Shown here one piece after another: positions 1-40,091 of a stretch of 64,000 bases of DNA (the stretch's first letter is position 1; each line of letters begins with the position of its first letter). This DNA comes from Hyaloperonospora brassicae (taxonomy: Eukaryota; Oomycota; Peronosporomycetes; Peronosporales; Peronosporaceae), in contig CANTFL010000604.1 in NCBI GenBank assembly GCA_947650285.1, positions 62,001 to 126,000 of the forward strand. Direction: 5' to 3'. A program made the position numbers and the translations under genes. The notes below the pieces were generated by a model. It did no database searches and was not told where the DNA came from. It saw only the letters and a program-made list of their open reading frames with translations.

Positions 1-1383
1 ACGCCTCAGTATTCGCCAAGGCCACTGCCGAACGAACGGACTCGTGAGTTGCAACACAGTCCGTTCGACAGTGATGATGAAGGTGATCAGAGTGGTGAGG
101 AGTATTACTCCTTACCACCGCCGACTCGTGCTTCTTCGCACGAGCGTAATGACGATGGCGCGAGCCGTCGTCATTCTGAAAGCCGTGGTACCGACAGAGG
201 TACCACTTCGACGCGTGATGAGCCGAAGCCGTGGCGTCTGCCCGAACTACTCATCAATAGCTTGTCTCACGAGACAAGCCAACACCATCGAATTCCTTTA
301 CTCGATGCGACCGAGCTTCATGGCTTGGATTCGAGCGCGAGCAACTTTCGCGCTGAAGAAGATTTTTATCTCGATGTCTTTCTTAGACATCGATGGTATA
401 ACGGCAACCAAAAGCGTGACAAGAACTCGCTTTTGGCAGCGTGGAACGCCTTCGTCCAAAATGTCAAGAATTTTGGACGAGAAGGGTGGCTTAAAAAACT
501 TGAGACGACACGCCTCAGGTTTAAAGGGCGAACGCCAACCGGTGCTAGGTACCGGTTGCATCGTTTGTCGATTGAGGCAGACATTCCTTGCCTCACTTGG
601 GTAGACCCTTGTGCGAGATGTACTGACAACTCGCAACGTGCACATAGGGACGTGTATTTACTAAGTTTGCCCTGGGGAAGGGCACACATCTCGGCTGAGA
701 TGCGTGACGCGATTGCAAACTTGCAATCCGTCTACAAGCGCCAAAAGCGAGTGTTTACCGATGGTCCCGAGAACTCATCGGATGGGTCTCGTCATATTGG
801 GGAATGAGACCGGGCACATCTATTATTAGCTGGGAGCCCCGCTCCCAGCTGTTTTACGAGGGTGGATACTCCCGCCACTGGACGAGGCAACTCGTCCTTG
901 ATCCTGAATCGTCACGGTGGTTCAAGATACGCTCCACTAGAAAGCGTCGACCACCGTGTGAGTCCACCAAAGGATGTGGTGGAGGAGGAAAGACCTCCTC
1001 TAGATCGTTCTGCTCACCATCTCGATCCTCACGAGATGGATCGCGCAATCGTTGAATTGCGCGATGATTTAGAGCACGAGCGCTACCGGCGCTACGCTTT
1101 GACTCATACCGTGCGGAAGTACCGCAAAGATCGCGAGGCTGATCGGGCGAGAGACCGCGCCGATTTCGCCACAGAGCATCTTCAGGTCGAGCGGGATGTC
1201 CGCTCTCTTTTCGGTGAGCTGGCGACAGATCGCGGGAAGATATCTCGGTTGAGCTCCGAGGTATCTTATTTACGCGACCAGATGGACCGTCTAGAGCGCG
1301 AACGCGAGAGTTTGATGGATGTTCTTGAACGTGGGGGCTATCTTCATCAAAAGAAGAAGGCTCATTCTGACAGTACGGCCTGA
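1..1383 (+). pseudogene. Antisense ORF of element 1 (conserved, unknown function; start off window)
   Basis: Frame 1 is open from base 1 to a single TGA at 805-807 and then open again to 1381-1383, about 460 codons in total, running opposite to pol. The first part has an acidic/Ser-rich start, then a domain with RHRW (about residue 130), AWNAF (150), GARY-LHRLS (180), IPCLTW (195) and a C-x2-C pair (CARC) followed by DNS. The second part, after the stop, is rich in Arg, Glu, Asp and Leu and looks like a coiled coil. Element 3, diverged here, keeps the same protein pattern and has an Arg-containing open stretch where this copy has TGA. The family is unknown to me. The part after 807 overlaps the chromodomain and linker of pol on the other strand. 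Confidence 0.6.
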
Positions 1384-2989
1384 GTCGCCCCACGTAAGAC
1401 GTAGGATGCTTGCGCATCTTACGTGGAAATTCGATCGTGTATGCATTGCCCTTGCGATGCAACACTCGAAATGGCCCAACGTATTTCGGCAGTGGTTTAC
1501 TACTGCCGACACTAGTGACTGCATGTCCAGGTAAGTTTACCGTAGACAGTAGTATTAGGTCGTTAACCTTAAATGAAAGAACATTTGCTCTTCCATTCTT
1601 GTCTGCGTTCCGTTTCTGGCGGTCCACCGCATTTGCGATGGAGTCCTGAACGAAACGGACTACCGTCTCTCGAGTCAGCAGGAAGTTCTATGCTGACTCG
1701 TTGTTTTGTCTTTCATTGCACTTCGTGCGTACTGCTAAGAGATCGCTCTCTTCTTCAACGAGGTTGTCGTTTTCCTCGCTGGAATAATCGTTGACGATGC
1801 TGAATATACCAGCAGCATCATCATCATCCGAGTCAATAATAGCGTTGCCGCCATTATTGAGGTGGTGTTCTTCATCGATGTCGACATGTCGACATCGGCA
1901 TCATACGTGACGACGTTAGCGTCGACACGTGATGAGCAAGAGCCAGAACGGTTTCCGCTCGAGCGAGTCCCTCCCCCCTTACATAAGAGTCATACTCTAG
2001 AAGGGCGGGAACACGTGGATGGTGTAAGCCATTTACGTAAAACGGTGTGTGCTGGATTGAAGCATGCACCGAATTATTGATGGCAATTCCACCATTGGAA
2101 GGAATTCGCTCCAACTCTAAAACGAGTGGACATATCCTCGAAGAATCTCTTAGAGGACACGGTTCGCACGTTCCGTCTGACCATCTGTTTTCGAATGGTC
2201 AGAAGTGGACATCTTCGATCGTGTTCCGAGAGAACGGAACACGGTTTGCCAATTTTCCGCCGTGAACCGAGGGTCACGGTCGGATACGAGTTCACGGGGA
2301 AAACCGTGGAGTCGGAAGATCGTGTCAAACAAGACACGAGCACAGCTGCGTGCCGTGATGGACTCGGGCACTGCAGCAAGATGCACTATCTTGCTGAACC
2401 GATCAATGAACACAACAATGTCATTATTCTTGTGAGCGTCTTCGGAAAATTCGAAGACGAAGTCCGTTGAAACGGACTGCCAGCAATCTTCCGGGACCGG
2501 TAGAGGCTGTAATGGTGCGCAGGATGAAGGACTAGGCTTCACCCGTTGACAAACCTCGCAAGCACGTATGTACTTGCGTACAAACAGATACTGGCGGGGC
2601 CAGTAAAGGACACGACTGACCGTGAGGTAAGTCCTTTCTCTCCCACGATTCCTCCTGTTGGGGCATCGTGACACTCATACATGATGCGTAATCGCAAATC
2701 ATTATGAGTGGGGACGACGGCACGAGGCGTGTCGCCGTCAACTGCTGTATAATATAACAGTCCGTTACGCGTTGTGTACCGATCCGATGAGGATAGGTAC
2801 AAAGCCGGCAAATCCGACAAGGATTTCCGGGATGGGTTCGCAAGATGACCCATCAAACGGAGGAGATTTGTGTCTCCTACGTATGCTTTCCGCACGTCGT
2901 CAAGTAAAGGTGACGACGGCACACTGATGGACAGTGTCGCAACAGTGGGCAAAGCCTTACTGTTGACTCGGGACGTTGGCTCGAAGTAG
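755..2989 (-). pseudogene. pol: Pol: integrase, GPF module and chromodomain, element 1
   Basis: On the minus strand the remains of the HHCC zinc-binding region lie around 2540-2700. The core has the second catalytic Asp in VSDRDPRF (about 2260) and the region of the catalytic Glu in DGQTERANRV near 2155. After a disrupted stretch the C-terminal part is open again (1627 to 854): ADKNGRANV, KYVGPFRVL (the GPY/F motif) and RRFLVERIL followed by LVQWREYPPS, which is the first half of a chromodomain. A TAA at 851-853 cuts the chromodomain, and its second half (QYDETHP) is still recognisable down to a stop at 755. Chromodomains in this position are thought to guide integration to marked chromatin. 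Compared with element 2, the core-to-GPF junction here is more frameshifted. Confidence 0.85.
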
Positions 2990-4690
2990 GGCCGGCGCGA
3001 GAGCGCATCAGCGACGACGTTTAGTCGTCCTGGTTTATAGTCCACGGAGAAGTTGTACTCCGCGAAGAAAGACAGCCACCTCGCCATTCTCTGCGATAGG
3101 TGTGGGCTGTTTACGGCCGTGCGTAGTGACGCATGGTCCGTATAGACGATGAACGGTCTATCTCCCAAGAGATAGACCCGGAACGTAGCCAGTACATATT
3201 TCATGGCAAGGAGTTCCTTGTCATGCACTGTGTAATTGCGCTCAGCTGCTTGCAGCTGACGCGTTTGATAACAGACGACGCGCTCTGCGCCGTCTGTGTC
3301 ATACTGCATCAACGATTAGCCGATTGCAAAATCGCTGGCGTCACAGACCACATGAAAAGATCTGTCCTGATCCGCAATCGCCAAGATGGGCGATATCATC
3401 AAGCTTTTCTTGATGCTTTCAAAGGAACGCTGACAGTCAGCGTTCCATGACCATTTTACATCTTTCTTGAGCAAGCAAGAAAGATGAACAGTCATCTCGG
3501 CGTAATTGCACGAGTACTTGTGCAAGTACGTCGCTAGTCCAAGGAACTTCCTTAGTCCCTTGACATCGACTGGCACTGTCCAGTCGGTGATCGCCTTGAT
3601 CTTCTAGGGATCGGGGCGTACGCCGATTTTACCCACGATGCACCCAAGAAGTGGTATTTCGCTTGCCTCGAATATACACTTCTTGAGGTTGGCATACAGC
3701 TTATGCTTGCGCATAAGTTGAAGGACTTGACGAACGTAAGTTCGGTGAACTTCAACGTCCGTCTTTCCGTCCATAGCCGGGCTATGGACGAACACATCGT
3801 CGAAGTAACTCGGTGCGAATTCTCGCACCGGTCTCAACAGATTTGTAACACATCTGTTGAAAGTAGCAGGGGCATTACTCATCCCCTGTGGCATCACTAG
3901 CCACTCCCATAACATACCGCTGGGGGTGCTCACTGCTGTGTACGGGATGTCCCGTTCACGCATGAGGATCTGATAGAATCCATCCATCAGATCCATGGGC
4001 GAAAAGATGGTACTCTGTGACATACCATCTATGATTACGTCCTTCCTCGGTATCGGCGTATGAGCCGGTACCGTTGCAGCATTCAACTTGTTGAACGCGT
4101 GCACTATCCGCCATCCTCCTTTGGCCTTTCGCACACAGAAGGTCGGAGAGCTGTGAGGGGATGTCGATTCCCTCAGATGGCCCGCTGCTAAGCGATCGGT
4201 GAAAAACTTATCGATCGCTATCACTTGTTCACGAGGCAGTGGCCACTGCTTCATGACACAATATTTCGAGCCCGGTTTGAGCTCGATCTCGTGTCGAGTG
4301 CCTTTGTCCATAGGCAACTCGCAAGGAACGGATTCAGGGAACACATCCTTGAATTCGATCAAATCTTTATAATAAGGATTTGCCTGAAGCGACTCCTAGG
4401 ATTGAGATTCATATCTCTCGATCCGAGTCTTCTCATCGATGACGCTTTCGTCCATCGATGAACTGCTGAGAACCCTCTCGGTCTCAGTAAACACCGTTGC
4501 CGACCGAATATCGGCCACATAATCGTCTTCCGCGACGAGTACACAGATCTGCTTGACTTTGCCACTACGCAGATCACGCAAGAACCGTATCGGTTCTAGC
4601 GTTGGCAACTGAGTTATCTCCGATGTTAACTTCGGAGGCACAATCAGATCAAGCGTATAAGCGCCTACGCTTGATCCGTCATTAACCCAA
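2990..4690 (-). pseudogene. pol: Pol: reverse transcriptase and RNase H, element 1
   Basis: RT landmarks on the minus strand are GGWRIVHAFNKLN, IFSPMDLMDGFYQI, LVMPQGMSNAPATF and the catalytic box SYFDDVFVH (near 3795). RNase H landmarks are VVCDASDFAIG, DKELLAMKY, YTDHASL and VADALSRRPYF. Two in-frame stops, TAG after VRPDP (about 3606) and TAA after DFAIG (about 3313), occur at identical places in elements 2 and 3. A further TAG near 4397 replaces a Trp codon that is intact in element 2. From about 4690 downwards the sequence is nearly identical to element 2, above it much less so. Confidence 0.93.
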
Positions 4691-5660
4691 GACTTTCAAC
4701 GTCCCTGGTACTATCTGGGAACTTCGTTCCACAGGTTGCTGAAGGTCTAATTCTTCATCAAGTGACTCTTGAGGAATTGATTCCTCAAGTACGTGGGGAC
4801 TTATTCCCTCGAAGTCTACTGACTGTGGATGTGCAACCACAGTCAGGGAACGATCCTCTACGGTCGACTCTTCAGTCGACCTATTTTACATGTTTCCCTT
4901 TGGGGGCAACAGGTTTCTTCTGTCTAAGATTCTGCCCGCTAGGCATGCATCCATGTCCCGGTCCACTCGACTTATTCGAGTGGTGGACCTTCGGCGCAGC
5001 CTGTACCTCTGTACAGTCGCCGGGAGCTTGCTCCACAGTGTAGTGATTAACTACCCTGTGATCTTGTGCGGTCGTGCGAACGACCGAACTGCAAGTGAGG
5101 CCATCGCACTCACTCGCAGAACATCCACACGCTTGTGGACGCTTCGTGGCGTTTGTCAGATGGCCATCTGATGAACAAGCGGCAGGCATCTTTACGGATC
5201 GATGCTGCCATCTCACCCTTGGCTCGTACCTTCTGAGCCAAGGTAATCCCAGGATGACATCAAATTTGTCATCCAGATTCAGTACGATGAAGTCATCATC
5301 GTACTGTTTGCCCTCCAACGTGTAGAGGATTCCTCCGACACGTTTCTCAACAATAATCGATGCGCCTGTTGCAAGGCGCACCGTCATCCTCGTGAGGGGG
5401 AATGTCGCGCTCAACGAACTTGAGCCTACGACCCTCTAGTGAATGGCGACGAACAAAGTTGTTCGACGCCTCACAGTCTACAAGGGCACGAAGCGACAAA
5501 TTATTTGTCGCTTCCAACATCAAGATGATGAGCGAAACGTCATCACCAGGTGCAGAGACACACAATGATTGTGTATCTGGAGCAACTTTCGTCAAGAGAT
5601 TTGCAAATTCTCTTAATGTTGCTGGACCAGTAGGGCGCTCCGCCCCTACTGATCCCGACC
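4691..5660 (-). pseudogene. Pol: retropepsin-like aspartic protease and variable linker, element 1 (family B)
   Basis: Around 5490 the minus strand encodes SLRALVDCEASNNFVRR, which aligns with the catalytic D-[ST]-G-A motif of retropepsins but has Cys in place of Ser/Thr and Glu in place of Gly. The Gly-to-Glu change should kill activity. Elements 2 and 3 have DCGAS. The second half, DDDFIVLNLDDKFDVILGLPWL, contains the ILG motif of the C-terminal half of the protease fold. A frameshift near 5400 splits the domain. A longer linker than in element 2 follows. Protein identity to element 2 is only moderate here, which marks the family B part of the mosaic. Confidence 0.8.
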
Positions 5661-5667
5661 ATTTTTT
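5624..5667 (-). promoter_or_regulatory. Predicted -1 programmed frameshift site, gag-pro, element 1
   Basis: On the minus strand the heptamer A AAA AAT (5667-5661) sits in gag phase. It is followed by a 5-nt spacer and a 12-bp stem (arms 5655-5644 and 5635-5624, one G-T pair, 8-nt loop). Slipping back one base enters the frame that continues without a stop into the protease. Heptamer, spacing and stem follow the standard -1 frameshift rules known from retroviral gag-pro junctions. The same arrangement occurs in elements 2 and 3. Confidence 0.65.
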
Positions 5668-6801
5668 GATGGTCCGTCTCGCTGTTACGGCTTCGCAACA
5701 GCGCTGGACCCACGTCCATTGTCCTTTCTGGCGAATGGACGTCCATTTCGCTCAGTACTGTTTGGTACTGGGCGTGGAGCACTACACTCATGTGCGAAGT
5801 GCCCTAAGTTCGGACAGCGATTGCACCTTATCAATCGCTTGTTGTTAGTAGATCGAGGTCTCTCGCTCTCAACATAGCAGAGGTCCATTGGTTCTGGACC
5901 TCCGATCTCTTGTTGTCTAGGTGGACGATAAGAGTTTTAGCTAGCATGAGCCTGTCTCATGCTAAAGTCTTCCTGTTCCGCGGCTGATATCGCATCTTCC
6001 AGCGTATTCAGCTCAAGGCGGAACAGGTGGCTCCTGACGGGCCCTTCTGCGAGCCCTTGCATGAACACCGTAATCAACGTGTGTTCATGGACTGGGGTTG
6101 GCAGTTATACTACTCGCGAGGAGTCGTATATGTTGAGCGTAAGCGTGCACATCACGCTTACCCTGCTTGAGTTTCAAGAGCTCAGAACGAGCCCTGAACT
6201 CAGCGCGTGGCGGCTCAAATGTTTGTCTGAGCCGGGACTTGAAGTCATGTAGCTACCTAAACACATTTGGGTCGCTAATCTCGAGTCCCAGGGACCAAGT
6301 TTTGGCACGTCATGCCAAGTGGGTTTGAGCAAATGTAAGTTTCATTTCATCATCTTCGACACGACGTGCCTTCAAGGCTCTGTCTAGTTCGACAAACCAG
6401 AGTAATAGGGAGTCTTCCGGGACTCCACTGTACTTGGAGATGTCAACTTTCATGACTTCGGGACGACGCGCATGTGACGTCCCGCCCACAGCAGCATGGA
6501 ATTGCTGCTGTCTCAACAGCTCTGTATGTTTAGCACCGCGTTCTCTCAACTGCTCGGCCTGTTCAGAGCCTTGCTGGTGAAGCAAGGCTACTTTCTCCCT
6601 TTCGGCGACAAATTCATTTTGAATGAACTTGGCTATAGCAGCAGGTTGTTGGTCTCTGTCTAGAGACTTCAACATGACGCTAATGGCAAACTCGCCTACG
6701 GTAGAACTCATTCGTTCTACCGCACTCCATTCGATGTCACTCAAATGGTTAGAACCTTCACGCGTGGCGTGAAAGTTCTCTTCATCATCCAACATGTTCA
6801 T
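5656..6801 (-). pseudogene. gag: Gag with CCHC zinc knuckle, element 1 (family B)
   Basis: The reading frame starts at an ATG whose first base is 6801, 27 nt after the primer-binding site on the minus strand. It gives LSDIEWSAVERMSSTVGE, the same motif as in elements 2 and 3, and a Gln/Glu-rich, probably coiled segment. It then gives LLLWFVELDRAL and stops at a TGA near 6310, where elements 2 and 3 have a Gly codon. The zinc knuckle CNRCPNLGHFAHEC (C-x2-C-x4-H-x4-C) is encoded near 5800. A TAA at 5685 replaces a Gln codon of the other copies. Gag packages the element RNA. This copy is only moderately similar to the other two and represents a second family. Confidence 0.88.
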
Positions 6802-6827
6802 GTTGGATGCTGTGGTCCTTGAAAGGG

Positions 6828-6843
6828 CTACAAAGTGCTACCA
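6828..6843 (-). other. Primer-binding site, element 1
   Basis: TGGTAGCACTTTGTAG follows the 5' LTR after a 2-nt gap, read on the minus strand. The first 8 bases (TGGTAGCA) are complementary to the 3' end of an initiator-methionine tRNA of the common ...UGCUACCA type. The rest does not match well, so the tRNA identity is an inference. The same 16 bases occur in elements 2 and 3. Confidence 0.6.
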
Positions 6844-6845
6844 GG

Positions 6846-7239
6846 TGTAACGGGGCACACCCTTGCGTGAACTTAACGCAAGGGCTTGGGTGCCCCGACA
6901 GACGTACACGAGGCAAACGAGGAAGCGTAGATAAGGGAAAAGTAAAACTGTTGTATTAATATAATTAAGTCTTTTGTTACTGTCTCTCTGTTTAACCTGA
7001 CTTAATTATGTTAATCTAACTGAGTATATGGTGACGTCTCGTCACCACTCATTGCGCGCGTCCTGCGGCGATTGGTGGGTTGATATCGTCAAGATGTCAA
7101 CCAATGAGCAGACCCTTTAGGTCGCTTCACCAATATCACCACTATCGGTGATATCGTTCAAAGGATATTCAACTTAATATCCTTTTTTGTCATTCTTTCT
7201 TTTAAGTGACAATTCCATGTAACGGGCTGCCCTGTTACG
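6846..7239 (-). repeat. 5' LTR of element 1 (family B type)
   Basis: The LTR ends in CCCCGTTACA next to the PBS and begins at 7239 with GCGTAACAGG, a mutated form of the TGTAACGGGG end of the other LTRs. It is about 394 bp long. Its PBS-proximal part, with a 9-bp hairpin (arms CCCTTGCGT and ACGCAAGGG), matches the 3' LTR of element 3 and not the 5' LTRs of elements 2 and 3. The conserved core CCACCAATCGC...GCGCAATGGGTGG is present, on the opposite strand, around 7043-7078. Confidence 0.8.
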
Positions 7240-11634: not shown

Positions 11635-12082
11635 TATAACGGGGTAGCCCGTTACATGAGATTGTCATTTAAAACAATCTGACAATAAAGAATATTACGT
11701 CGCATATTCTTTTAACAATATCACAGGCATGGTGATATTGTTGGGATGACTGAAGGTTCTACTCATTGTTTGATATCGTGATGATATCAACCCAACCCAC
11801 CAATCGCTACTAGACGTGCGCAATGGGTGGTGAGTAGACGTCATCATACATCTAGTTATATTAGTATAATCAAGTCAGGACAACAGAGATTCAAGGAGTT
11901 ATAGGACTTAATTATATTAATATGGTTTTACTTTTACCAAGAGACTATTCTGACTACTTAGTCTCCTTTCCTTCCTCTGTGTGTTCCCTAAAACACCTAG
12001 CAGGGCACTGTCGACCACTGTCGTCAGTGGAAGTTCACTCCGTACTGGTCAACCAGTACGTAGTCAACAGTGCCCCGTTACA
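11635..12082 (+). repeat. 5' LTR of element 2 (family A)
   Basis: It runs from TATAACGGGG (a G-to-A change in the expected TG start) to CCCCGTTACA, 448 bp. Strong internal hairpins are seen: the first 22 bases (TGTAACGGG-type arm and CCCGTTACA), an 11-bp stem at 11714-11742 (AACAATATCAC / GTGATATTGTT) and an 8-bp stem GTACTGGT/ACCAGTAC near 12042. The conserved LTR core lies at 11797-11834. Confidence 0.9.
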
Positions 12083-12084
12083 CC

Positions 12085-12100
12085 TGGTAGCACTTTGTAG
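12085..12100 (+). other. Primer-binding site, element 2
   Basis: TGGTAGCACTTTGTAG begins 2 nt after the LTR end. Eight bases match the 3' end of a typical initiator Met tRNA. It is identical to the sites in elements 1 and 3. Confidence 0.6.
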
Positions 12101-12132
12101 TCCGTCCAAGGACCACAACCCCATCGCCCTTC

Positions 12133-13253
12133 ATGAAGATGTTGGACGATGTAGACGGCGACAGCTTTTACGGAACCCGTGAAAGCTACTCCCATTTGAG
12201 TGACATCGAATGGAGTGCGATCGAACGAATGAGCTCGACCGTTGGCGAGGAAGCCATATGGGCCATGCTATCCTCAAGGGATAGGGACCAGCAACATGCC
12301 GTCATTAGCAAGTTCTTGCAACGAGAAATTAATGAGTCGCGAGCGCAGGTGACCTTGTTACAACAACAAGATCACCAGCGGACCGAAGCACTGAGACAAC
12401 AACAGTCTCAGTCCGCAGAGCCGACGCGTGAGCGTCGACGGGAGTCTCTAAACTAGAGGTCTCCAAGTATCGGGGAGTTGTGGAAGACTCCCTGTTGAGA
12501 TGGTTCGTCGAGCTGGACGATGCCATCGATGCTCGTCGCATCAACGATGAGCGAATGCAAGTCTCATTCGCTCAGTCTAACCTGGCAGGAGAAGCCAGAG
12601 CTTGGGCCCTGAACCTCAAGTTACACGACCCAAACGTGTTTGGGTCGTTAGATGTCTTCAAGACCCTGCTCAGTGAGACGTTCGAGCCGCCCAGAGCAGA
12701 GTTGAGAACACTATCTGAACTCCTCGGAATCAAGCAGGGTAAGCGTAAGGTTCACGCTTACGCTCAGCACGTACTCTACCTTGCAAGCTGCATGGTAGTG
12801 AACCCTGTGAGTGAGTTTGTGTTGATCACAATCTTCATTCAAGGGCTTTCAGACGGTCCCGTTTGGGACCACCTGTTCCGCAGAGATCTAAAGACGCTCT
12901 CAAAGGCAATCTTTGCAGCGGAGCAAGAAGATTATAGCGTGAGACAGGCTCGCGCTACGTTGACCCCACATCGTCCACAAAGACGATTAGCAGTCGGAGG
13001 TCCAGAACCAATGGACCTCTGTAATGTCGAGGGCGAGAAACCTCGCCCTGCGAATGACAAGCGAATGGTGAGATGCCATCGCTGTCATAAACTGGGACAC
13101 TATGCATATGAATGCAGTATCCCCTGCTCAGAACCTCGCGGTGCTGAGCGCAGTGTTCACCCACCAGCAAGAAGAACTGAAGGGCGAGGGTCCGTTGCTG
13201 TTGCGAAGTCGCAACGGCGTGGTGGACAATCAAAAAACGGTCGGGATCAGTAG
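12133..13253 (+). pseudogene. gag: Gag with CCHC zinc knuckle, element 2 (family A, one frameshift)
   Basis: The ATG at 12133 opens a frame with LSDIEWSAIERMSSTVGE and a Gln-rich coiled segment that ends at a TAG (12454-12456). Comparison with element 1 shows a single-base shift just before that point, after which the gag frame (12480 onward) is open: DSLLRWFVELDDAIDARR, NLAGEARAWALNLK, FEPPRAELRTLSELL, then the zinc knuckle CHRCHKLGHYAYEC near 13080. The frame ends at TAG 13251-13253, inside the frameshift hairpin. Element 3 carries the same break, so the defect predates their separation. Confidence 0.9.
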
Positions 13254-13275
13254 GGGCGGAGCGCCCTACTGATCC
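13232..13275 (+). promoter_or_regulatory. Predicted -1 programmed frameshift site, gag-pro, element 2
   Basis: The heptamer A AAA AAC (13232-13238) is in gag phase (codons TCA AAA AAC). A 5-nt spacer follows, then a perfect 12-bp stem with arms GGATCAGTAGGG (13244-13255) and CCCTACTGATCC (13264-13275) and an 8-nt loop. The gag stop codon lies within the first arm. The -1 frame equals the protease frame. The family A copies have a TAA at 13277-13279 in that frame where element 1 has a sense codon. Confidence 0.7.
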
Positions 13276-13279
13276 ATAA

Positions 13280-13680
13280 ACATCAAGAGAATTTGCAAAT
13301 CTCCTGAAGAAGGTTGCTCCCGACACACAATTTATGTGTGTCTCTGCACCTGGTGATGAGGTGTCACTTATCACTTTGAAGTTAGAAGTGACAAAAGACT
13401 TGTCACTTCGCGCCCTAGTTGACTGTGGGGCGTCGAACAATTTTGTTCGTCGCCAGTCGCTAGAGGCAGGAAGTTTTAGCTTCGTGGAGCGGGAGATCCC
13501 TCCAACGAAGATGACGGTGCGCCTAGCGACAGGCGCATCGATCACTGTGAAGAAACGTGTAGTCGGAATCCACTACACGTTAAAAGGCGAACAGTACGAT
13601 GATGATTTCATCGTGCTTGACCTAGATGACAAGTTCGACGTCATCTTAGGGTTGCCTTGGCTCAGGAAATACTAGCCAAG
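13280..13680 (+). pseudogene. Pol: retropepsin-like protease, element 2
   Basis: The motif LRALVDCGASNNFVRR near 13410 is the active-site loop of a retropepsin-type protease with Cys in the usual Ser/Thr place. DDDFIVLDLDDKFDVILGLPWL (near 13605) carries the hydrophobic-hydrophobic-Gly motif of the second half. The frame is the -1 frame relative to gag. A TAG at 13673-13675 replaces a Glu codon that is intact in element 1. It is shared with element 3. Confidence 0.85.
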
Positions 13681-15640
13681 GGTGAGTTGGCAGTATCGAT
13701 CGGTTACGATACCTGCTACTTGTTCCTCAGATAATCACCTGACGAATATCTTGGAACGCCCACACTCACGTGGGTGTACTACGAGCGAGTTCGATGGCCT
13801 CACTTTTGGTACGGTCGTTAGCACGACTGTACAAGAACACAATGTAGATGATCACTACATTGTGGAGAAAGCTCACCCAGATCCTGTAAAAGTGATTTCC
13901 CAGGAGGTAATCGAGACACTGAATGTCTTGGTTAATGATGGATCAAGCGTAGGCGCTTACACGCTTGATCTGGTTGCGCCTCCGAAGTTAACTTCGGAGA
14001 TACACTCAACTGCCGACGCTAGAACCGAAACGGTTCTTGCGTGATCTGCGTAGTGGCAAAGTCAAGCAGATCTGTGTACTCGTCCGCGGAGGACGAGTAC
14101 GTTACCGATATTCGATCGGCAACGGTGTTTACTGAGACCGAGAGGGTTCTCAGCAGTTCATCGATGGACGAAAGCGTCATCGATGAGAAGACTCGGATTG
14201 AGAGATATGAATCTCAATCCTGGGAGTCGCTTCAGGCAAATCCTTATGTATGAAGGATTTGATCGAATTCAAGGATGCGTTCCCTGAATCCGTACCTTGC
14301 GAGTTGCCTATGGACAAAGGCACTCGACACGAGATCGAGCTCAAACCGGGCTCAAAATATTGTGTCATGAAGCAGTGGCCACTGCCTCGTGAACAAGTGA
14401 TAGCGATCGATAAGTTTTTCACCGATCGCTTAGCAGCGGGCCATCTGAGGGAATCGACATCCCCTCACAGCTCTCCGACCTTCTGTGTGCGAAAGGCCAC
14501 AGGAGGATGGCGGATAGTGCACGCGTTCAACAAGTTGAATGCTGCAACGGTACCGGCTCATACGCCGATACCGAGGAAGGACGTAATCATAGATGGTATG
14601 TCACAGAGTACCATCTTTTCGCCCATGGATCTGATGGATGGATTCTATCAGATCCTCATGCGTGAACGGGACATCCCGTACACAGCAGTGAGCACCCCCA
14701 GCGGTATGCTGTGGGAGTGGCTAGTGATGCCACAGGGGATGAGTAATGCCTCTGCTACTTTCAACAGATGTGTTACAAATCTGTTGAGACCGGTGCGAGA
14801 ATTCGCACCGAGTTACTTCGACGATGTGTTCGTCCATAGCCCGGCTATGGACGGAAAGACGGACATTGAAGTTCACCGAACTTACGTTCGTCAAGTCCTT
14901 CAACTTATGCGCAAGCATAAGTTGTATGCCAACCTCAAGAAGTGTATATTCGCGGCAAGCGAAATACCACTTCTTGGGTGCATCGTGGGTAAAATCGGCG
15001 TACGCCCCGATCCCTAGAAGATCAAGGCGATCACCGACTGGACAGTGCCAGTCGATGTCAAGGGACTAAGGAAGTTCCTTGGACTAGCGACGTACTTGCA
15101 CAAGTACTCGCGCAATTACGCCGAGATGACTGTTCATCTTTCTTGCTTGCTCAAGAAAGATGTAAAATGGTCATGGAACGCTGACTGTCAGCGTTCCTTT
15201 GAAAGCATCAAGAAAAGCTTGATGATATCGCCCATCTTGGCGATTGCGGATCAGGACAGACCTTTTCATGTGGTCTGTGACGCCAGCGATTTTGCAATCG
15301 GCTAATCGTTGATGCAGTATGACACAGACGGCGCAGAGCGCGTCGTCTGTTATCAAACGCGTCAGCTGCAAGCAGCTGAGCGCAATTACACAGTGCATGA
15401 CAAGGAACTCCTTGCCATGAAATATGTACTGGCTACGTTCCGGGTCTATCTCTTGGGAGATAGACCGTTCATCGTCTATACGGACCATGCGTCACTACGC
15501 ACGGCCGTAAACAGCCCACACCTATCGCAGAGAATGGCGAGGTGGCTGTCTTTCTTCGCGGAGTACAACTTCTCCGTGGACTATAAACCAGGACGACTAA
15601 ACGTCGTCGCTGATGCGCTCTCGCGCCGGCCCTACTTCGA
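13681..15640 (+). pseudogene. pol: Pol: reverse transcriptase and RNase H, element 2
   Basis: Small insertions relative to element 3 near 14006, 14086 and 14250 break the N-terminal part. The RT core is open from 14250 to 15017, with GGWRIVHAFNKLN, MDLMDGFYQI, MPQGMSNASATF and YFDDVFVHS. TAG at 15015-15017 (after VRPDP) and TAA at 15303-15305 (after DFAIG) are shared with both other elements. RNase H residues follow: CDASDFAIG, KELLAMKY, TDHASL, VADALSRRPYF. The stretch 14761-15466 holds at least 15 perfect or near-perfect hairpins, such as arms CAACTTATGC/GCATAAGTTG at 14901-14924. Confidence 0.93.
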
Positions 15641-17870
15641 GCCAACGTCCCGAGTCAACAGTAAGGCTTTGCCCACTGTTGCGACACTGTCCATCAGTGT
15701 GCCGTCGTCACCTTTACTTGACGACGTGCGGAAAGCATACGTAGGAGACACAAATCTCCTCCGTTTGATGGGTCATCTTGCGAACCCATCCCGGAAATCC
15801 TTGTCGGATTTGCCGGCTTTGTACCTATCCTCATCGGATCGGTACACAACGCGTAACGGACTGTTATATTATACAGCAGTTGACGGCGACACGCCTCGTG
15901 TCGTCGTCCCCACTCATAATGATTTGCGATTACGCATCATGTCCGAATGTCACGATACGCCGTCTGGCGGGCATCGTGGCCGAGAAAAGACTTACCTCAC
16001 GGTCAGTCGTTGCTTTTGCTGGCCCCGCCAATATCAGTTTTTCCGCAAGTACATTATTTATTGCGAGGTCTGTCAATAGGTGAAGCCTAGTCCTTCGTCC
16101 CGTGCACCGTTACAATCTCTGCCGGTCCCGGCAGAGTGTTGGGAGTCCGTATCGATGGACCTTGTCTTCGGGTTTCCCGAATACACGAACAAGAATAATG
16201 GTATTCTTGTGTTTGTGGATCGTTTCAGCAAGATGGTACATCTAGCTGCGGTCCCAGAATCGATCAACGCCCACGGCTGTGCGCGTGTCTTCATCGACAC
16301 TGTGTTTCGACTCCACGGTTTACCCCGTGAACTCGTGTCCGACCGTGACCCTCGGTTCACGGCGGCGTTTTGGCAATCCGTGTTCCGCACATTGGGAACA
16401 CGGTTGAAGATGTCAACCTCTGAGCATCCCGAAACGGATGGTCAGACTGAACGGGCGAGCCGTGTCCTCGAAGAGATCCTTCGTGGATACGTTCACTCCT
16501 TTTCACATTGAAGTGAGTTCTTAGCGATGGTTGAGTTTGCCATCAACAATTCCGTGCATGCGTCCACAACACATACACCGTTCTACGTGAACGGCTTACG
16601 CCACCCACGTATTCCCGTCCTCATACAGAGTGACTCTGAGTCAAGGGGGGGGAGGGACTTGCTCGATCAAAAACCGTTTTGGCTCTTTCTCATCACGTAT
16701 CACCGCTCACGCCAATACGTTTGATGCCGATGTCGACGTTGTCGACATCGAGGAAATCGAGATTAGCAGTAGCGATGACGCTGCTGCTACATCAGACAAC
16801 GATGACGATGCTGGGATATTCAGCATCGTCAACGATTGTTCCAGCGAGGAAGAAGACACCCTCGTTGAAGAAGAGAGCGATCTCTTAGCAGTACGCACGA
16901 AGCGCACTGAAAGACAAAACAACGAGTCAGCAGAGAACTTCCTGCTGACTCGAGAGACGGTAGTCCGTTTCGTTCAGGACTCCATCGCAAATGCGGTGGA
17001 CCGCCAGAAACGGAACGCAGACAAGAATGGAAGAGCAAATGTTCTTTCATTTAAGGTTAACGACCTAATACTACTGTCTACGGTAAACTTACCTGGACAT
17101 GCAGTCACTAGTGTCGGCAGTAGTAAACCACTGCCGAAATACGTTGGGCCATTTCGAGTGTTGCATCGCAAGGGCAATGCATACACGATCGAATTTCCAC
17201 GTAAGATGCGCAAGCATCCTACGTCTTACGTGGGGCGACTCAGGCCGTACTGTCAGTATGAGCCTTCTTCTTTCGATGAAGATAGCCCCCACGTTCAAGA
17301 ACATCCATCAAACTATCGCGTTCGCGCTCTAGACGGTCCATCTGGTCGCGTAAATAAGATACCTCGGAGCTCAACGCGAGATATCTTCCCGCGATCTGTC
17401 GCCAGCTCACCGAAAAGAGAGCGGACATCCCGCTCGACCTGAAGATGCTCTGTGGCCGAAATCGGCGCGGTCCTTCGCACGATCAGCCTCGCGATCTTTG
17501 CGGTACTTCCGCACGGTATGAGTCAAAGCGTAGCGTCGGTAGCGCTCGTGCTCTAAATCATCGCGCAATTCAACGATTGCGCGATCCATCTCGTGAGGAT
17601 CGAGATGGTGAGCAGAACGATCTAGAGGAGGTCTTTCCTCCTCCACCACATCCTTTGGTGGACTCACACGGTGGTCGACGCTTTCTAGTGGAGCGTATCT
17701 TGAACCACCGTGACGATTCAGGATCAAGGACGAGTTGCCTCGTCCAGTGGCGGGAGTATCCACCCTCGTAAAACAGCTGGGAGCGGGGCTCCCAGCTAAT
17801 AATAGATGTGCCCGGTCTCATTCCCCAATATGACGAGACCCATCCGATGAGTTCTCGGGACCATCGGTAA
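15641..17870 (+). pseudogene. pol: Pol: integrase, acidic segment, GPF motif and chromodomain, element 2
   Basis: The zinc-binding HHCC region is visible (ECHDTPSGGHRG ... YCEVCQ, near 15945-16078) and is followed by a TAG at 16077-16079. The core has the Asp of VSDRDPRFTA and the Glu of DGQTERASRVLEE. A TGA at 16509-16511 replaces Trp. A run of seven G at about 16646 shifts the frame relative to element 3. A strongly acidic segment (around 16730-16890) precedes RQKRNADKNGRANV and KYVGPFRVL. The chromodomain (RRFLVERIL ... SCLVQWREYPPS, 17670-17770) is cut by a TAA, with remnants down to 17870. The linker between GPF and the chromodomain overlaps the antisense ORF. Confidence 0.9.
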
Positions 17871-18845
17871 ACACTCGCTTTTGGCGCTTGTAGACGGATT
17901 GCAAGTTTGCAATCGCGTCACGCATCTCAGCCGAGATGTGTGCCCTTCCCCAGGGCAAACTTAGTAAATACACGTCCCTCTGTTCACGTTGCGAGTTGTC
18001 AGCACATCTCGCACAAGGGTCTACCCAAGTGAGGCATGGAATGTCTGCCTCACTCGACAAACGATGCAACCGGTACCTGGCACCGGTTGGCAATCTCTTT
18101 TCGAATTTGAGGCGTACTGCCTCAAGCTTCTTGAGCCATCCTTCTCGTCCAAAATTCTTGACATTTTGGACGAAGGCGTTCCACGCTGCCAAAAGCGAGT
18201 TCTTGTCACGCTTTTGGTTGCCGTTATACCATCGATGCCTAAGGAAGGCACCGAGATAAAAATCTTCTTCAGCGCGAAAGTTGCTCGCGCTCGAATCCAA
18301 GCCATGAAGCTCGGTCGCATCGAATAAAGGAATTCGATGGTGTTGGCTTGTCTCGTGAGACAAGCTAATGATGAGTAGTTCGGGCAGACGCCACGGCTTC
18401 GGCTCATCACGCGTCGAAGTGGTACCTCTGTCGGTACCACGGCTTTCAGAATGACGACGGCTCTCGCCATCGTCATCACGCTCGTTCGGGGAAGCACGAG
18501 TTGATGCTGGTGAGGCATAGTATTCCTCACCATGGAGTCATCATCACTGCCGAACAGACTGTGTTGCATTTCACGAGTCCGCTAGTTCGACAGTGCACTT
18601 GACGAACGATGAGGCACCGTCGGTGATCGAGACGCCTCTGGAATGTTGCGTGATTCAGGTACGTCTGACTCGCCGGAATTGATGACCTCATTGACAAGGT
18701 CATCATGTGCACGTGGTGCGATACCGCGTGCGTCTGCAGCACCTTCTGCTGCAGACGGAGGACAAGCAGCAGACGACGAAGAGTCTGCCGCAGAGGCTGG
18801 CACAGCAGCAGGCTGTGTGGTCTTCGAATCACCTCGCATAGACAT
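17240..18845 (-). pseudogene. Antisense ORF of element 2 (conserved, unknown function)
   Basis: The first good ATG on the minus strand is at 18845. The reading order is an Ala/Ser-rich start, the motif NSGESDVPES (near 18680), a TAG near 18590 where element 1 has a Glu codon, a frameshifted stretch around 18450, and then an intact domain from 18363 to 17818. That domain carries RHRW, AWNAF, GARYRLHRLS, IPCLTW, CARC and DNS. A TGA separates the domain from a coiled-coil-like part (17763-17407) and a further shift leads to the last segment, ending at 17240. It is nearly identical to element 1. The start lies about 130 bp inside the 3' LTR, so a promoter in or next to the LTR could drive it; that is inference. 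Confidence 0.55.
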
Positions 18846-18960
18846 GTTAACTATGCGAGGCAAGGTCAGGAGTGAATGGGTCTGACCAAACAAGTGCTCC
18901 CTGTCCCACTGGTGTCCAACGGGTGGACACCAAGTTTTCGATAGTCACACGGTGACTATT

Positions 18961-18977
18961 GGAAAAGGGAAGGGTGA
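18961..18977 (+). other. Polypurine tract, element 2
   Basis: GGAAAAGGGAAGGGTGA directly precedes the TGTGACGGGG start of the 3' LTR. Position and composition are those of the plus-strand primer site of LTR elements. Confidence 0.7.
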
Positions 18978-19418
18978 TGTGACGGGGTAGCCCGTTACAT
19001 GAGATGGTCATTTAAAACAATCTGACAATAAAGAATATTACGTCGAATATTCTTTTAACAATATCACAAGACATGGTGTATTGTTGGGATGACCGAAGGG
19101 TCTACTCATTGTTTGATATCGTGATGATATCAACCCACCAATCGCTGCTAGACGCGCGCAATGGGTTGTGAGCAGACGTGATTATATATATATTATTTAT
19201 ATTAGTATAATCAAGTCAGGACAACAGAGATTCAAGGAGTTATAGGGTCAATTTGAATAATACAGTTTTACTTTTTCTACGACTAGAGTCATTCACTTTA
19301 GTCAATCTACCTTCCTCTATGTAGTTCTACTCCTAGCTGGGCACTGACTACCAATACAGTCAGTTATAGTAAACTCCGTACTGGTTGACCAGTAAGTAGC
19401 TGTCGGTGCCCCGTTACA
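18978..19418 (+). repeat. 3' LTR of element 2
   Basis: It runs from TGTGACGGGG to CCCCGTTACA, 441 bp. The first 270 bp agree well with the 5' LTR, including the core at 19136-19172. The last part has many substitutions and small indels and keeps only the CTCCGTACTGGT...ACCAGTA hairpin and the terminal inverted repeat. The LTR pair therefore does not look like the product of one reverse-transcription event. Confidence 0.88.
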
Positions 19419-19623
19419 GTCGCCGTCGCCCGATAAAATAAACGAGGCGGGGTCTGCAACAAGTCTACTGCAAGTTCAATCGTATCGGGACCTACGCGAA
19501 TAGACCTAATCTTAGCGACGGCGAATGGAAGCGAAGAACTTCTAGCAGGTTGATGATATGCCTGTTTAAGGGGCGCGGCGATGCGAAAGCTGATGGATCT
19601 TTAAATTCGGCTTCATCACCGCC

Positions 19624-21630: not shown

Positions 21631-21639
21631 TGAATGTTC

Positions 21640-21920: not shown

Positions 21921-21939
21921 GTGAGGTGACATAGAGAGA

Positions 21940-32193: not shown

Positions 32194-32635
32194 TGTAACG
32201 GGGTAGCCCGTTACATGAAATTGTCATTAAGAACAATTTGACAATATAGAATATTAAGGCGGATATTCTTTTAACAATATCACAGGCATGGTGATATTGT
32301 TGAGATGACCGAAGGGTCTACTCATTGGTTGATATCGTGATGATATCAACCCACCAATCGCTACTAGACGTGCGCAATGGGTGGTGAGTAGACGTCATCA
32401 TTCAAATAGTTACATCAATGTAATTAAGTCAGGACAACCGAGATTCAAGGAGTTATATGACTTAATTATATTAATATGGTTTTACTTTTACCAAGAGACT
32501 ATTCTGACTACTTAGTCTCCTTTCCTTCCTCTGTGTTCCCTTAAAACACCGAGCAGGGTACTGTCGACCACTGTCGTCAGTTGAAGTTCACTCCGTACTG
32601 GTCAACCAGTACGTAGTCAACAGTGCCCCGTTACA
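32194..32635 (+). repeat. 5' LTR of element 3 (family A)
   Basis: It spans TGTAACGGGG to CCCCGTTACA, 442 bp. It closely matches the 5' LTR of element 2 and carries the core at 32351-32388. Confidence 0.92.
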
Positions 32636-32637
32636 CC

Positions 32638-32653
32638 TGGTAGCACTTTGTAG
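32638..32653 (+). other. Primer-binding site, element 3
   Basis: TGGTAGCACTTTGTAG lies 2 nt after the LTR, identical to the sites in the other two elements. TGGTAGCA fits an initiator Met tRNA 3' end. Confidence 0.6.
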
Positions 32654-32685
32654 TCCGTCCAAGGACCACAACCCCATCGCCCTTC

Positions 32686-33806
32686 ATGAACATGTTGGAC
32701 GATGTAGATGGCGACAGCTTTCACGGAACCCGTGAAAGCTACTCCCATTTGAGTGACATCGAATGGAGTGCGATCGAACGAATGAGCTCGACCGTTGGCG
32801 AGGAAGCCATATGGGCCATGCTATCCTCAAGGGATAGGGACCAGCAACATGCCGTCATTAGCAAGTTCTTGCAACGAGAACTTGATGAGTCGCGAGCGCA
32901 GGTGACCTTGTTACAACAACAAGATCACCAGCGGACCGAAGCACTGAGACAACAACAGTCTCAGTCCGCAGAGCCGACGCGTGAGCGTCGACGGGAGTCT
33001 CTAAACTAGAGGTCTCCAAGTATCGGGGAGTTGTGGAAGACTCCCTGTTGAGATGGTTCGTCGAGCTGGACGATGCCATCGATGCTCGTCGCATCAACGA
33101 TGAGCGAATGCAAGTCTCATTCGCTCAGTCTAACCTGGCAGGAGAAGCCAGAGCTTGGGCCCTGAACCTCAAGTTACACGACCCAAACGTGTTTGGGTCG
33201 TTAGATGTCTTCAAGACCCTGCTCAGTGAGACGTTCGAGCCGCCCAGAGCAGAGTTGAGAACACTATCTGAACTCCTCGGAATCAAGCAGGGTAAGCGTA
33301 AGGTTCACGCTTACGCTCAGCACGTACTCTACCTTGCAAGCTGCATGGTAGTGAACCCTGTGAGTGAGTTTGTGTTGATCACAATCTTCATTCAAGGGCT
33401 TTCAGACGGTCCCGTTTGGGACCACCTGTTCCGCAGAGATCTAAAGACGCTCTCAAAGGCAATCTTTGCAGCGGAGCAAGAAGATTATAGCGTGAGACAG
33501 GCTCGCGCTACGTTGACCCCACATCGTCCACAAAGACGATTAGCAGTCGGAGGTCCAGAACCAATGGACCTCTGTAATGTCGAGGGCGAGAAACCTCGCC
33601 CTGCGAATGACAAGCGAATGGTGAGATGCCATCGCTGTCATAAACTGGGACACTATGCATATGAATGCAGTATCCCCTGCTCAGAACCTCGCGGTGCTGA
33701 GCGCAGTGTTCACCCACCAGCAAGAAGAACTGAAGGGCGAGGGTCCGTTGCTGTTGCGAAGTCGCAACGGCGTGGTGGACAATCAAAAAACGGTCGGGAT
33801 CAGTAG
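32686..33806 (+). pseudogene. gag: Gag with CCHC zinc knuckle, element 3
   Basis: The ATG at 32686 is followed by the same Gag as in element 2 and the same single-base shift and TAG near 33007. The C-terminal frame (33033-33806) includes the CHRCHKLGHYAYEC knuckle near 33633 and ends at a TAG inside the frameshift hairpin. The N-terminal 107 codons differ from element 2 by only a few residues. Confidence 0.9.
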
Positions 33807-33828
33807 GGGCGGAGCGCCCTACTGATCC
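33785..33828 (+). promoter_or_regulatory. Predicted -1 programmed frameshift site, gag-pro, element 3
   Basis: The heptamer AAAAAAC (33785-33791) in gag phase, a 5-nt spacer (GGTCG) and a 12-bp perfect stem (33797-33808 with 33817-33828) repeat the arrangement of element 2. Confidence 0.7.
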
Positions 33829-33829
33829 A

Positions 33830-34234
33830 TAAACATCAAGAGAATTTGCAAATCTCCTGAAGAAGGTTGCTCCCGACACACAATTTATGTGTGTCTCTGC
33901 ACCTGGTGATGAGGTGTCACTTATCACTTTGAAGTTAGAAGTGACAAAAGACTTGTCACTTCGCGCCCTAGTTGACTGTGGGGCGTCGAACAATTTTGTT
34001 CGTCGCCAGTCGCTAGAGGCAGGAAGTTTTAGCTTCGTGGAGCGGGAGATCCCTCCAACGAAGATGACGGTGCGCCTAGCGACAGGCGCATCGATCACTG
34101 TGAAGAAACGTGTAGTCGGAATCCACTACACGTTAAAAGGCGAACAGTACGATGATGATTTCATCGTGCTTGACCTAGATGACAAGTTCGACGTCATCTT
34201 AGGGTTGCCTTGGCTCAGGAAATACTAGCCAAGG
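33830..34234 (+). pseudogene. Pol: retropepsin-like protease, element 3
   Basis: VDCGASNNFVRR and DVILGLPWL are intact. The TAG at 34226-34228 and the TAA after the frameshift hairpin are shared with element 2. The frame continues in phase into RT. Confidence 0.85.
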
Positions 34235-39513: not shown

Positions 39514-39634
39514 GGGCTGCGAAGTGGAAATGAGAAGGAAAAGACCAACAATTGCTCCCCGTCCCCAGAGCGACACGACGGGAGTCCCTCTGTCACAACC
39601 AATCATATCATCCACTATAGTGACTGATGGGTAT

Positions 39635-39645
39635 GGAAGGGGTGA
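39635..39645 (+). other. Polypurine tract, element 3
   Basis: GGAAGGGGTGA lies directly before the TGTAACGGGG start of the 3' LTR. Confidence 0.65.
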
Positions 39646-40091
39646 TGTAACGGGGTGAGCCCGTTACATTAAAACTGGTATGAAAGTACCAATTTTTGAA
39701 TATTATCTGTTTTGATAACATTCAGTTAACATAACTCGAAATGCGTGATGTCGTCGGATTGTTATCGCCAAGGATAATATCCGTGGAGGGGTCTACTCCT
39801 CGATTGATGCACGGTGTACATCAACCAACTTAACCACCAATCGCTGCTGGACGCGCGCAATGGGTGGTGAGCAAGGGACCCACATAGGAGAAGATAGTTT
39901 AATATAGTTAGAGTAAGTCAAAAGATGATTTATGAACGTTATAACTATATTAAATAAACAGTTATAATTTTCCCTCAGGACAGAGCTTTCGGGTTCTGAA
40001 TTGCCTACCACTTTCTCGGTTGCCTTGTGTACGCTTGTCGGGCACCCGTCACCCTTGCGTTAAGTTCACGCAAGGAGTGTGCCCCGTTACA
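39646..40091 (+). repeat. 3' LTR of element 3 (family B)
   Basis: It is 446 bp, TGTAACGGGG to CCCCGTTACA. Outside the ends and the core (39834-39870) it is unlike the 5' LTR of the same element. Its last 60 bases (hairpin CCCTTGCGT/ACGCAAGG) match the 5' LTR of element 1. Confidence 0.9.

Follow-up and report, generated by a model that had tools for sequence, protein, structure and literature searches.

Dense short perfect hairpins in a Ty3/Gypsy retroelement family of Hyaloperonospora brassicae: a possible role in self-folding of both strands

Oomycete Ty3/Gypsy elements (Metaviridae) carry long terminal repeats (LTRs), a gag zinc knuckle, protease, reverse transcriptase (RT), RNase H and integrase. 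The family described here has the same parts and differs in that its DNA is saturated with short perfect hairpins. A literature search of titles and abstracts, with subscription journals and preprints outside its scope, returned no description of hairpin-saturated retroelements. Many inverted repeats occur in foldback elements, MITEs and the palindromes scattered through some mitochondrial and bacterial genomes, where they are largely copies of one palindrome, whereas the hairpins listed here differ in sequence and lie in coding DNA too. Quasipalindrome template-switch mutations would also create short-looped inverted repeats with perfect arms, but the one-arm changes and frequent propagated swaps expected of them were not found in this family. 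The genome-scale ordered RNA structure (GORS) of persistent RNA viruses is structure throughout the coding sequence beyond codon-shuffle controls. Folding beyond codon-preserving shuffles is likewise seen here, but the stems are short and perfect, show no clear preference for G-U and are closely similar between the strands, and the element is integrated as DNA. According to two reports, templates of Qbeta replicase need strong structure throughout against duplex formation, and this structure is said there to keep the template from pairing with its product (PMC6913131, PMC5362092). The likeness is that local structure is dense along the entire replicon; the difference is that Qbeta is an RNA replicon with an RNA replicase and no DNA stage, and duplex avoidance in our element is a proposed effect.

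The window, a stretch of 64,000 nucleotides analysed in full, holds three elements of this family:

1..7239, minus strand: element 1, same family as element 2; 5' LTR at about 6846-7239, 3' LTR beyond the window (match at C360:61382-61640); 57 hairpins with arms of at least 8 bp
11635..19418, plus strand: element 2, a decayed copy of a Ty3/Gypsy LTR retroelement; 62 hairpins with arms of at least 8 bp and loops of 2-15 nt
11635..12082, plus strand: 5' LTR of element 2, ending in ...CCCCGTTACA; hairpins at 11687-11712, 11714-11742, 11770-11790 and 12041-12060
12480..13253, plus strand: gag fragment (Retrotrans_gag, zinc knuckle), hairpins inside
14250..15017, plus strand: reverse transcriptase fragment (RVT_1), hairpins inside
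14831..14853, no strand: hairpin, the first example of the first-pass annotation; 11-bp arms, loop of 1 once pairing is extended inward
14901..14924, no strand: hairpin, 10-bp arms, loop of 4
15135..15162, no strand: hairpin, 11-bp arms, loop of 6
15175..15197, no strand: hairpin, 11-bp arms, loop of 1 once pairing is extended inward
15309..16079, plus strand: RNase H and integrase zinc-binding fragment, hairpins inside
15443..15466, no strand: hairpin, 10-bp arms, loop of 4
16630..17442, plus strand: fragment read as the C-terminal portion of pol (SH3_Tf2-1 match), hairpins inside
17821..18537, minus strand: antisense open stretch of 239 codons, taken as the remnant of an antisense frame
18978..19418, plus strand: 3' LTR of element 2
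32194..40091, plus strand: element 3, same family as element 2; LTRs at 32194-32635 and 39646-40091; 51 hairpins with arms of at least 8 bp

The limits first drawn for element 2 coincide with its LTR ends. The family shows the Ty3/Gypsy gene order, gag followed by a protease-RT-RNase H-integrase pol (RVP_2, RVT_1, RT_RNaseH, Integrase_H2C2 and rve in the pol of copy L023; gag seen in L075), and two LTRs ending in TG...CA. As exceptions, the 5' LTR of element 2 starts with TA and that of element 1 with CG. Two bases past the LTR, at the primer-site position, stands TGGTAGCAC..., without a tRNA match, and GGGGGGGG precedes the 3' LTR, at the place of the purine tract. The open stretch at 17821-18537 is taken as a remnant because the same region forms a 468-codon antisense frame, with homologues, in the young C41 copy.

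Perfect hairpins (loop 2-15 nt) were counted for arms of at least 6, 8 and 10 bp and compared with the mean of 20 dinucleotide shuffles. Element 2 contains 137, 62 and 23 against 22.5, 1.35 and 0.05. Element 1, counted over 1-7343 and thus with about 100 nt of flank, has 136, 57 and 17 (shuffles 21, 1.2 and 0.1), and element 3, counted over 32192-39900 with its last 191 nt left out, 129, 51 and 21 (22.6, 1.25 and 0.1). A short perfect hairpin occurs about every 55 bases in this family, in control regions and genes alike. Outside the elements, 7344-11634 gave 17, 1 and 0 (shuffles 14.8, 1.2 and 0) and 19419-32191 gave 46, 3 and 1 (40, 2.4 and 0.15). The region 39901-64000, which includes the end of element 3, gave 103, 6 and 0 (71, 5.7 and 0.5); here the shortest class is somewhat above shuffle and arms of at least 8 bp are at shuffle level. 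Three host open reading frames in the window lie near their codon shuffles (arm at least 7: 3 against 3.4, 1 against 2.5 and 3 against 1.7).

The excess over chance described in the first-pass annotation is therefore real and stronger than claimed there (62 against 1.4-1.8 in element 2, arm at least 8), and its absence from host genes is borne out by the three frames and, for arms of at least 8 bp, by the rest of the window. All five inverted repeats quoted in it are perfect and lie at the coordinates given above; its tally of 15 in 14761-15466 became 17, 13 or 8 on recount with arms of at least 6 (loop 2-15), 7 or 8 bp.

Copies elsewhere in the same 100.6-Mb genome make the pattern clearer, since young copies have twice the hairpin density of the window elements. 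The codon-shuffle control proposed at the outset was run on open frames: the 1339-codon pol of L023 contains 59 hairpins with arms of at least 8 bp, compared with 1.6 in 100 codon shuffles (maximum 5), and 77 with arms of at least 7 bp, compared with 4.8-5.1. Chance, base composition and codon use are ruled out as the cause by the dinucleotide and codon shuffles, and assembly error by the recurrence of the same hairpins on separate contigs, where some of the copies carry long open frames. In C41, hairpins occur from the beginning of one LTR to the end of the other, and the flanks (1438 and 878 nt) contain none with arms of at least 8 bp. Hairpins of this class (loop up to 16) span 20-29 nt in 102/111 cases. 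Density is only slightly higher in the antisense frame (17.1/kb) than in pol (14.7/kb). Arm length rises as the GC content of the stem falls (rho -0.24, p 0.004), and outer stem pairs are GC-richer than mid-stem pairs (0.64 against 0.52), which points to physical stability.

The feature is not a property of all retroelements in this genome, an idea rejected on the basis of other RT loci. All 30 loci of an RVT_1 search (L031-L060), most of them presumably LINE-like to judge by the length of the match and their long frames, had 0-2.1 hairpins per kb with arms of at least 7 bp (0.7-1.0 in shuffles of other loci), and 4/5 Copia loci were near shuffle level. In the fifth, L073, much of the count reflects a single TGACGTCA-type word that is repeated close to one end. 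Two related Gypsy loci, L061 and L064, show the feature more weakly. L063 and L067, whose hairpins are nearly identical, have a weak excess (6 and 7 against 2.4), and the other tested loci a weak one or none.

Variation among copies was then related to the stems. Shared and private variants and polarised alleles were counted in 21/31 copies; those left out as old, mosaic or partial were L001-L004, L006, L011, L012, L014, L022 and L068, five of which served as outgroup. Variants common to at least two of the 21 copies number 30.7 per 1000 nt in stems, 89.8 in loops and 57.8 in spacers, i.e. they are three times rarer in stems than in loops, and private variants 70.8, 100 and 80.6. For polarised derived alleles (270 sites without polarity left out), the rate ratio for loss of a stem was 0.37-0.46 among shared and 0.93-1.06 among private alleles. 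This depletion among shared and not private alleles suggests that the constraint acts in the lineage that replicates rather than on DNA already resident. With 4-6 shared stem gains, gain rates are too few to separate selection from mutational shelter of paired bases. These counts, taken from mosaic copies, indicate that Watson-Crick hairpins of about 25 nt are apparently kept by purifying selection, alike in both strands, and we infer that it acts on the replicating lineage. Should selection be the cause, it would maintain hundreds of base pairs per element alongside the protein code, and we know of no retrotransposon with a secondary constraint so dense.

Strand symmetry was assessed from mismatch types, with copies beyond the 21 also included, and from predicted folding. 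Relative to expectation, mismatches over 31 copies stand at 0.43 (G-U), 0.47 (A-C) and 0.42 (others). Among shared variants of the 21-copy set, A-C reached 20 against 30.9 expected and G-U 11 against 30.8, together 31 against 61.7, and transversion mismatches 11 against 31.5. A-C was milder than G-U, relative to expectation, in 14/20 comparison rows and G-U in 6/20. Window stems contain 28 of each, and pairs just outside stems 30 G-U and 21 A-C; young copies have 12 G-U and 16 A-C by a strict stem definition and 32 and 24 by a looser one. Overall, stems do not tolerate G-U better than A-C. Sense and antisense are predicted to fold above shuffles alike in windows of up to 70 nt, and sense exceeds antisense at 100 nt (2.44 against 2.24 SD over shuffles) and 200 nt (4.17 against 3.05). 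The pol frame is predicted to fold more strongly than codon shuffles at all window lengths tried.

Our preferred reading, to which we give a probability of roughly 0.36, is that the hairpins, spread throughout the element and under purifying selection in both strands, serve strand self-folding against the double-stranded RNA that feeds host silencing, on the model of Qbeta. Each strand, sense and antisense, would fold onto itself and would not anneal to its complement; less sense-antisense double-stranded RNA would form, and the element would escape host RNA silencing (RDR/Dicer). The mechanism would be a both-strand version of small-RNA-linked selection, which the first-pass annotation had offered beside a DNA-level function. 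Several observations are consistent with it. The similar depletion of G-U and A-C and the alike folding of both strands are as expected if both must fold, and strong local structure is predicted throughout both, as in Qbeta templates. The 468-codon antisense frame with homologues makes antisense transcription plausible. The host probably encodes Argonaute, RDR and Dicer-like proteins, judging from domain matches (3 Piwi, 1 RDR, 6 RNase III, with 2 loci carrying paired domains). In Phytophthora, 25-26-nt small RNAs come mainly from transposable elements, according to one report (PMC3804510).

Other results speak against silencing escape. LINE-like and most Copia loci lack the feature, though they would face the same silencing; sense folds above antisense at 100-200 nt, and the antisense frame is only slightly denser than pol. 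Folding of both RNA strands predicts that G-U and A-C are each milder than transversions, which holds in the 21-copy set and not in most diverged-copy comparisons. Private synonymous variants also fall below opportunity in stems (29 in stems and 83 outside, opportunity ratio 0.52), and this counts against the preferred reading as well. Self-folding of single siRNAs alone would be a weak effect, because the share of 25-mers that fold below -5 kcal/mol is only 32%, compared with 17% in codon shuffles. A wider claim is tentative and on the whole doubtful: that a transposon lineage recoded its whole genome, control regions and proteins included, as one strand-symmetric hairpin of about 25 nt after another. 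This RNA-phage-like architecture in a DNA-integrating retroelement would shield it in general from duplex formation and RNA silencing. If the constraint on the hairpins is selection, the family would be an example from nature of how RNA silencing (or cDNA folding) can shape a mobile element, and with hairpin-rich and hairpin-free LTR families in one genome the siRNA-yield prediction is directly testable.

A serious rival, though we hold it to be unlikely, is a function at the DNA level, in which hairpins were selected to fold the single-stranded cDNA of reverse transcription and thereby to protect it, compact it or help the second strand to be made. Mismatch type hardly matters over the 31 copies, as expected of DNA stems where G-T helps little; sense-strand A-C, which is minus-strand G-T, is the mildest type in the 21-copy set, and the hairpins of C41 fill the reverse-transcribed unit from LTR to LTR. 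Yet the A-C excess is slight over all 31 copies, G-U is milder in the six rows mentioned, and LTR-Copia elements also pass through cDNA while four of five lack the feature.

Less probable are the two causes that the first-pass annotation, right about chance, host genes and codon shuffles, had put forward among others. Template switching by the element's own RT would copy one arm from the other and so make and perfect inverted repeats (quasipalindrome correction), and it agrees with Watson-Crick stems that treat mismatch types alike and with a feature confined to some RT lineages. Differences are, however, equal on both arms (343 against 355, summed over 11 partly reciprocal comparisons), and one-arm clustering was below control windows in 9/11 comparisons. 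Compensated swaps at pairs free on both sides numbered 0 in 21 copies (2 further at pairs free on one side only) and 14 in 31 copies, against 9.8 and 60.6 expected from arms that template each other; two independent hits predict 12.9 in the 31 copies. New variants were without clear excess of stem gains, in few cases. In element 2, one-base insertions lengthen stems at 14076-14100 and 14237-14261; we gave them no weight as signs of switching, the element being decayed and the gain 1-3 bp.

Equally improbable is ordinary selection for structure of the genomic RNA in its sense strand, as in GORS viruses. Pol folding beyond codon shuffles at every window, the lead of sense over antisense at 100-200 nt, the existence of compensatory pairs, and the G-U majorities under the looser definition and outside window stems would fit it. 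Against this, stems do not favour G-U, which does no harm in sense RNA (28 G-U against 28 A-C, 12 against 16 and 11 against 20), A-C is the milder in most rows, the antisense strand is predicted to fold nearly as well, and the 20 sense tetraloops include 2 GNRA and 0 UNCG.

Very improbable is a mutational shelter without function, in which pairing lowers the mutation rate of bases during a single-stranded stage and paired states accumulate. It needs no selected function, accords with variation highest in loops and lowest in stems, and is compatible with the few polarised gains. A time-averaged toy model on random DNA, however, gave 2.8 (arm at least 7) and 0.3 (arm at least 9) hairpins per kb at the measured factor of 0.4, and 14.4 and 3.1 at 0.1, below the observed 18.6 and 10.1. 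Outside stems, transitions show no strand-specific bias (C>T 30, A>G 36, G>A 35, T>C 31).

DNA of relatives in other species was sought in viral_contigs and genome_contigs and none was found; at the protein level, the family pol shares 89% identity with a protein from Peronospora effusa across residues 500-1100. The hairpin span of 20-29 nt is close to the 25-26 nt given for Phytophthora small RNAs in the report cited above (PMC3804510).

Three related Ty3/Gypsy elements lie in the window:

11635-19418, + strand: element 2, a Ty3/Gypsy element
32194-40091, + strand: element 3, a Ty3/Gypsy element related to element 2
1-7239, - strand: element 1, a Ty3/Gypsy element related to elements 2 and 3, running from about 7239 past the window's start

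All three are decayed, with broken reading frames, and like other family copies (L011, L012, L022) they are recombinant mosaics: mid-pol is about 99% alike, gag of element 1 is about 55-85% alike to that of elements 2 and 3 (200-column bins), and the steps in identity are sharp. A further LTR-like fragment of the family, 63-78% alike to LTR copies, lies outside the elements at 21728-21809. The window also carries an inverted duplication (50696-51413 / 61240-61957, 98% complementary) that extends at 51433-51987 / 60668-61221.

The first-pass annotation described element 2 as saturated with short perfect hairpins, coding regions included, and the host genes as free of this. Its five quoted hairpins proved exact, and for arms of at least 8 bp and loops of 2-15 nt, elements 1, 2 and 3 contain 57, 62 and 51 hairpins, respectively, against 1.2-1.4 in shuffled sequences, while the stretches between and after them are at shuffle level. 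The excess also withstood codon shuffling: the 1339-codon frame of a family copy with open pol (L023), encoding protease, RT, RNase H and integrase, holds 59 hairpins with arms of at least 8 bp versus a mean of 1.6 in 100 shuffles (SD 1.1, maximum 5). In three host ORFs the observed/codon-shuffle ratio (arm of at least 7 bp) was about 0.4-1.8, as the annotation had anticipated.

A search of the 100.6-Mb genome with the RT region gave 40 scored matches among 2318 candidates. Hairpin density (arm of at least 8 bp) reached 13.4-14.0 per kb in young copies (L005, L019, L021-L029), some only 0.1% apart, compared with 6.6-7.2 in the window copies. In one young copy (the C41 copy, examined as three pieces), hairpins start at the 5' LTR and stop at the 3' LTR, and the flanks (1438 and 878 nt) contain none with an arm of at least 8 bp. 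Densities per kb were 17.9 in the LTR, 13.3 in the gag part, 14.7 in pol and 17.1 in the antisense-frame region. Within 7590 nt of this copy lie 111 hairpins (arm of at least 8 bp, loop up to 16 nt) where about 1.7 are expected, and 135 non-overlapping ones with arms of at least 7 bp, one per 56 nt. The span is 20-29 nt in 102 of the 111, its mean staying at 23-26 nt across arm lengths of 8 to 12 bp; loops peak at 4-6 nt, with a small second excess at 21-25 nt (5 versus 0.3 expected, arm of at least 8 bp), and a single arm exceeds 12 bp. Stems are longer where GC is low (rho -0.24, p 0.004) and richer in GC at their outermost pairs (0.64) than mid-stem (0.52), while overall GC barely differs between stems (0.545) and the rest (0.513).

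Hairpin saturation is a property of a lineage, neither of the genome nor of LTR elements at large, since observed/codon-shuffle ratios (arm of at least 7 bp) differ among loci of the same genome: 13-15 in the family itself (L023, L012, L004), 7.5 and 4.6 in related Gypsy loci (L061 and L064, 68% alike), 2.5-2.9 in L063 and L067, 0.4-1.6 in three further RVT_1 loci, 0.4-0.5 in four Copia loci with 2.6 in a fifth (L073), and 0.3-2.3 in seven LINE-like loci. Titles and abstracts of the literature searched yielded no description of hairpin-saturated retroelements. Near one end of the fifth Copia locus (L073:66-142), overlapping inverted repeats of the TGACGTCA type are clustered. On parts of contigs C882 and C865, Copia RT matches recur every 2.7-2.9 kb in a single orientation, a spacing suggestive of tandem arrays.

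In a set of 21 copies, shared variants (present in at least two) occur at 30.7 per 1000 nt in stems, 89.8 in loops and 57.8 in spacers; for private variants the values are 70.8, 100 and 80.6. Synonymous variants number 26 in stems versus 115 outside if shared (ratio 0.23) and 29 versus 83 if private (0.35), against an opportunity of 0.52. Because the polarised rate of stem loss relative to neutral is reduced among shared variants (0.37-0.46) but not private ones (about 1), constraint on stems is suggested to act during element replication and not on resident DNA. The codon register that pairs third positions with each other is scarce (12, versus 31 and 31 in the other registers), as expected if stems are made from synonymous sites.

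A folded sense RNA should tolerate G-U pairs but not A-C. Inside stems, G-U and A-C mismatches number 28 and 28 in the window, 12 and 16 in young copies, and 10 and 20 (11 and 20 in another count) among shared variants; in 31 copies, observed/expected values are 54/125.9 and 67/142, and across 20 comparison rows the milder mismatch is G-U in 6 and A-C in 14. In windows of up to 70 nt, sense and antisense folding exceed shuffles alike, and in those of 100 and 200 nt the excess is larger for sense (two shuffles served as antisense control). As G-U is not favoured over A-C and both strands fold much alike, the constraint is Watson-Crick and near strand-symmetric. Compatible with this are a folding in which both RNA strands take part and, as the main rival, folding of the cDNA. 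Ordinary selection on sense-RNA structure, one cause proposed in the annotation, is disfavoured by these counts and this symmetry; a looser stem definition in young copies gives 32 G-U versus 24 A-C, which makes it slightly more likely, yet we still consider it improbable as the main cause.

Template switching by the RT, another proposed cause, would copy one arm from the other, and the evidence speaks against it. In diverged copies, hairpin differences fall equally on 5' and 3' arms, and for 9 of 11 comparisons, some of them reciprocal, one-arm clustering is weaker than in control windows; the other two involve only 3 and 4 hairpins. Where both members of a pair are free to change, a class that includes DNA beyond the pol frame with a possible other coding role, propagation between arms predicts 9.8 swaps in 21 copies and 60.6 in 31, against 0 and 14 seen; two independent hits, computed from measured rates, predict 12.9. 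Two more swaps in the 21 copies lie at pairs free on one side. A mutation shelter, in which hairpins build up as paired bases mutate less often, is likewise spoken against by a toy model (random DNA, stem changes accepted at a set factor), which at factors 0.4 and 0.1 gave 2.8 and 14.4 hairpins per kb versus 18.6 observed (arm of at least 7 bp), and 0.3 and 3.1 versus 10.1 (at least 9 bp). Under the strongest of the selection-like rules (loss 0.1, gain 3.6), the model gave 29 and 7.9, closer for long arms with too many short ones; judging by these simulations, stems of 8-11 bp seem to be preferred in reality.

The mechanism we prefer, inferred from these patterns, is escape from duplex formation: each strand would fold locally into hairpins, so that sense RNA and antisense RNA, the latter from a host RDR or the element's own antisense gene, would be kept from annealing and Dicer would receive less double-stranded RNA. 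Domain matches place Piwi, RDR and RNase III domains in the host genome. In the cited passages, 25-26-nt small RNAs of Phytophthora stem mainly from transposable elements (PMC3804510), and Qbeta replicase is described as requiring RNA templates with strong structure throughout, for a reason like that proposed here for the element (PMC6913131, PMC5362092). Two Argonaute matches with identical scores and opposite orientation lie 7 kb apart on contig C871 (95352-96221, -; 103461-104330, +).

Between pol and the 3' LTR, a young copy carries a 468-codon frame antisense to the element (L074:1390-2793, +); open antisense stretches lie in element 2 (17821-18581, -). The product of the 468-codon frame has no Pfam match and 16 protein matches; an organism is named for two of these, Peronospora matthiolae in both cases, and identity to a protein of that species is 40%. 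Protein identities make a Peronospora-like oomycete the likely host: among the best 120 of 3749 matches, Pol residues 500-1100 share 89% identity with a protein of Peronospora effusa and 78% with a P. matthiolae protein.
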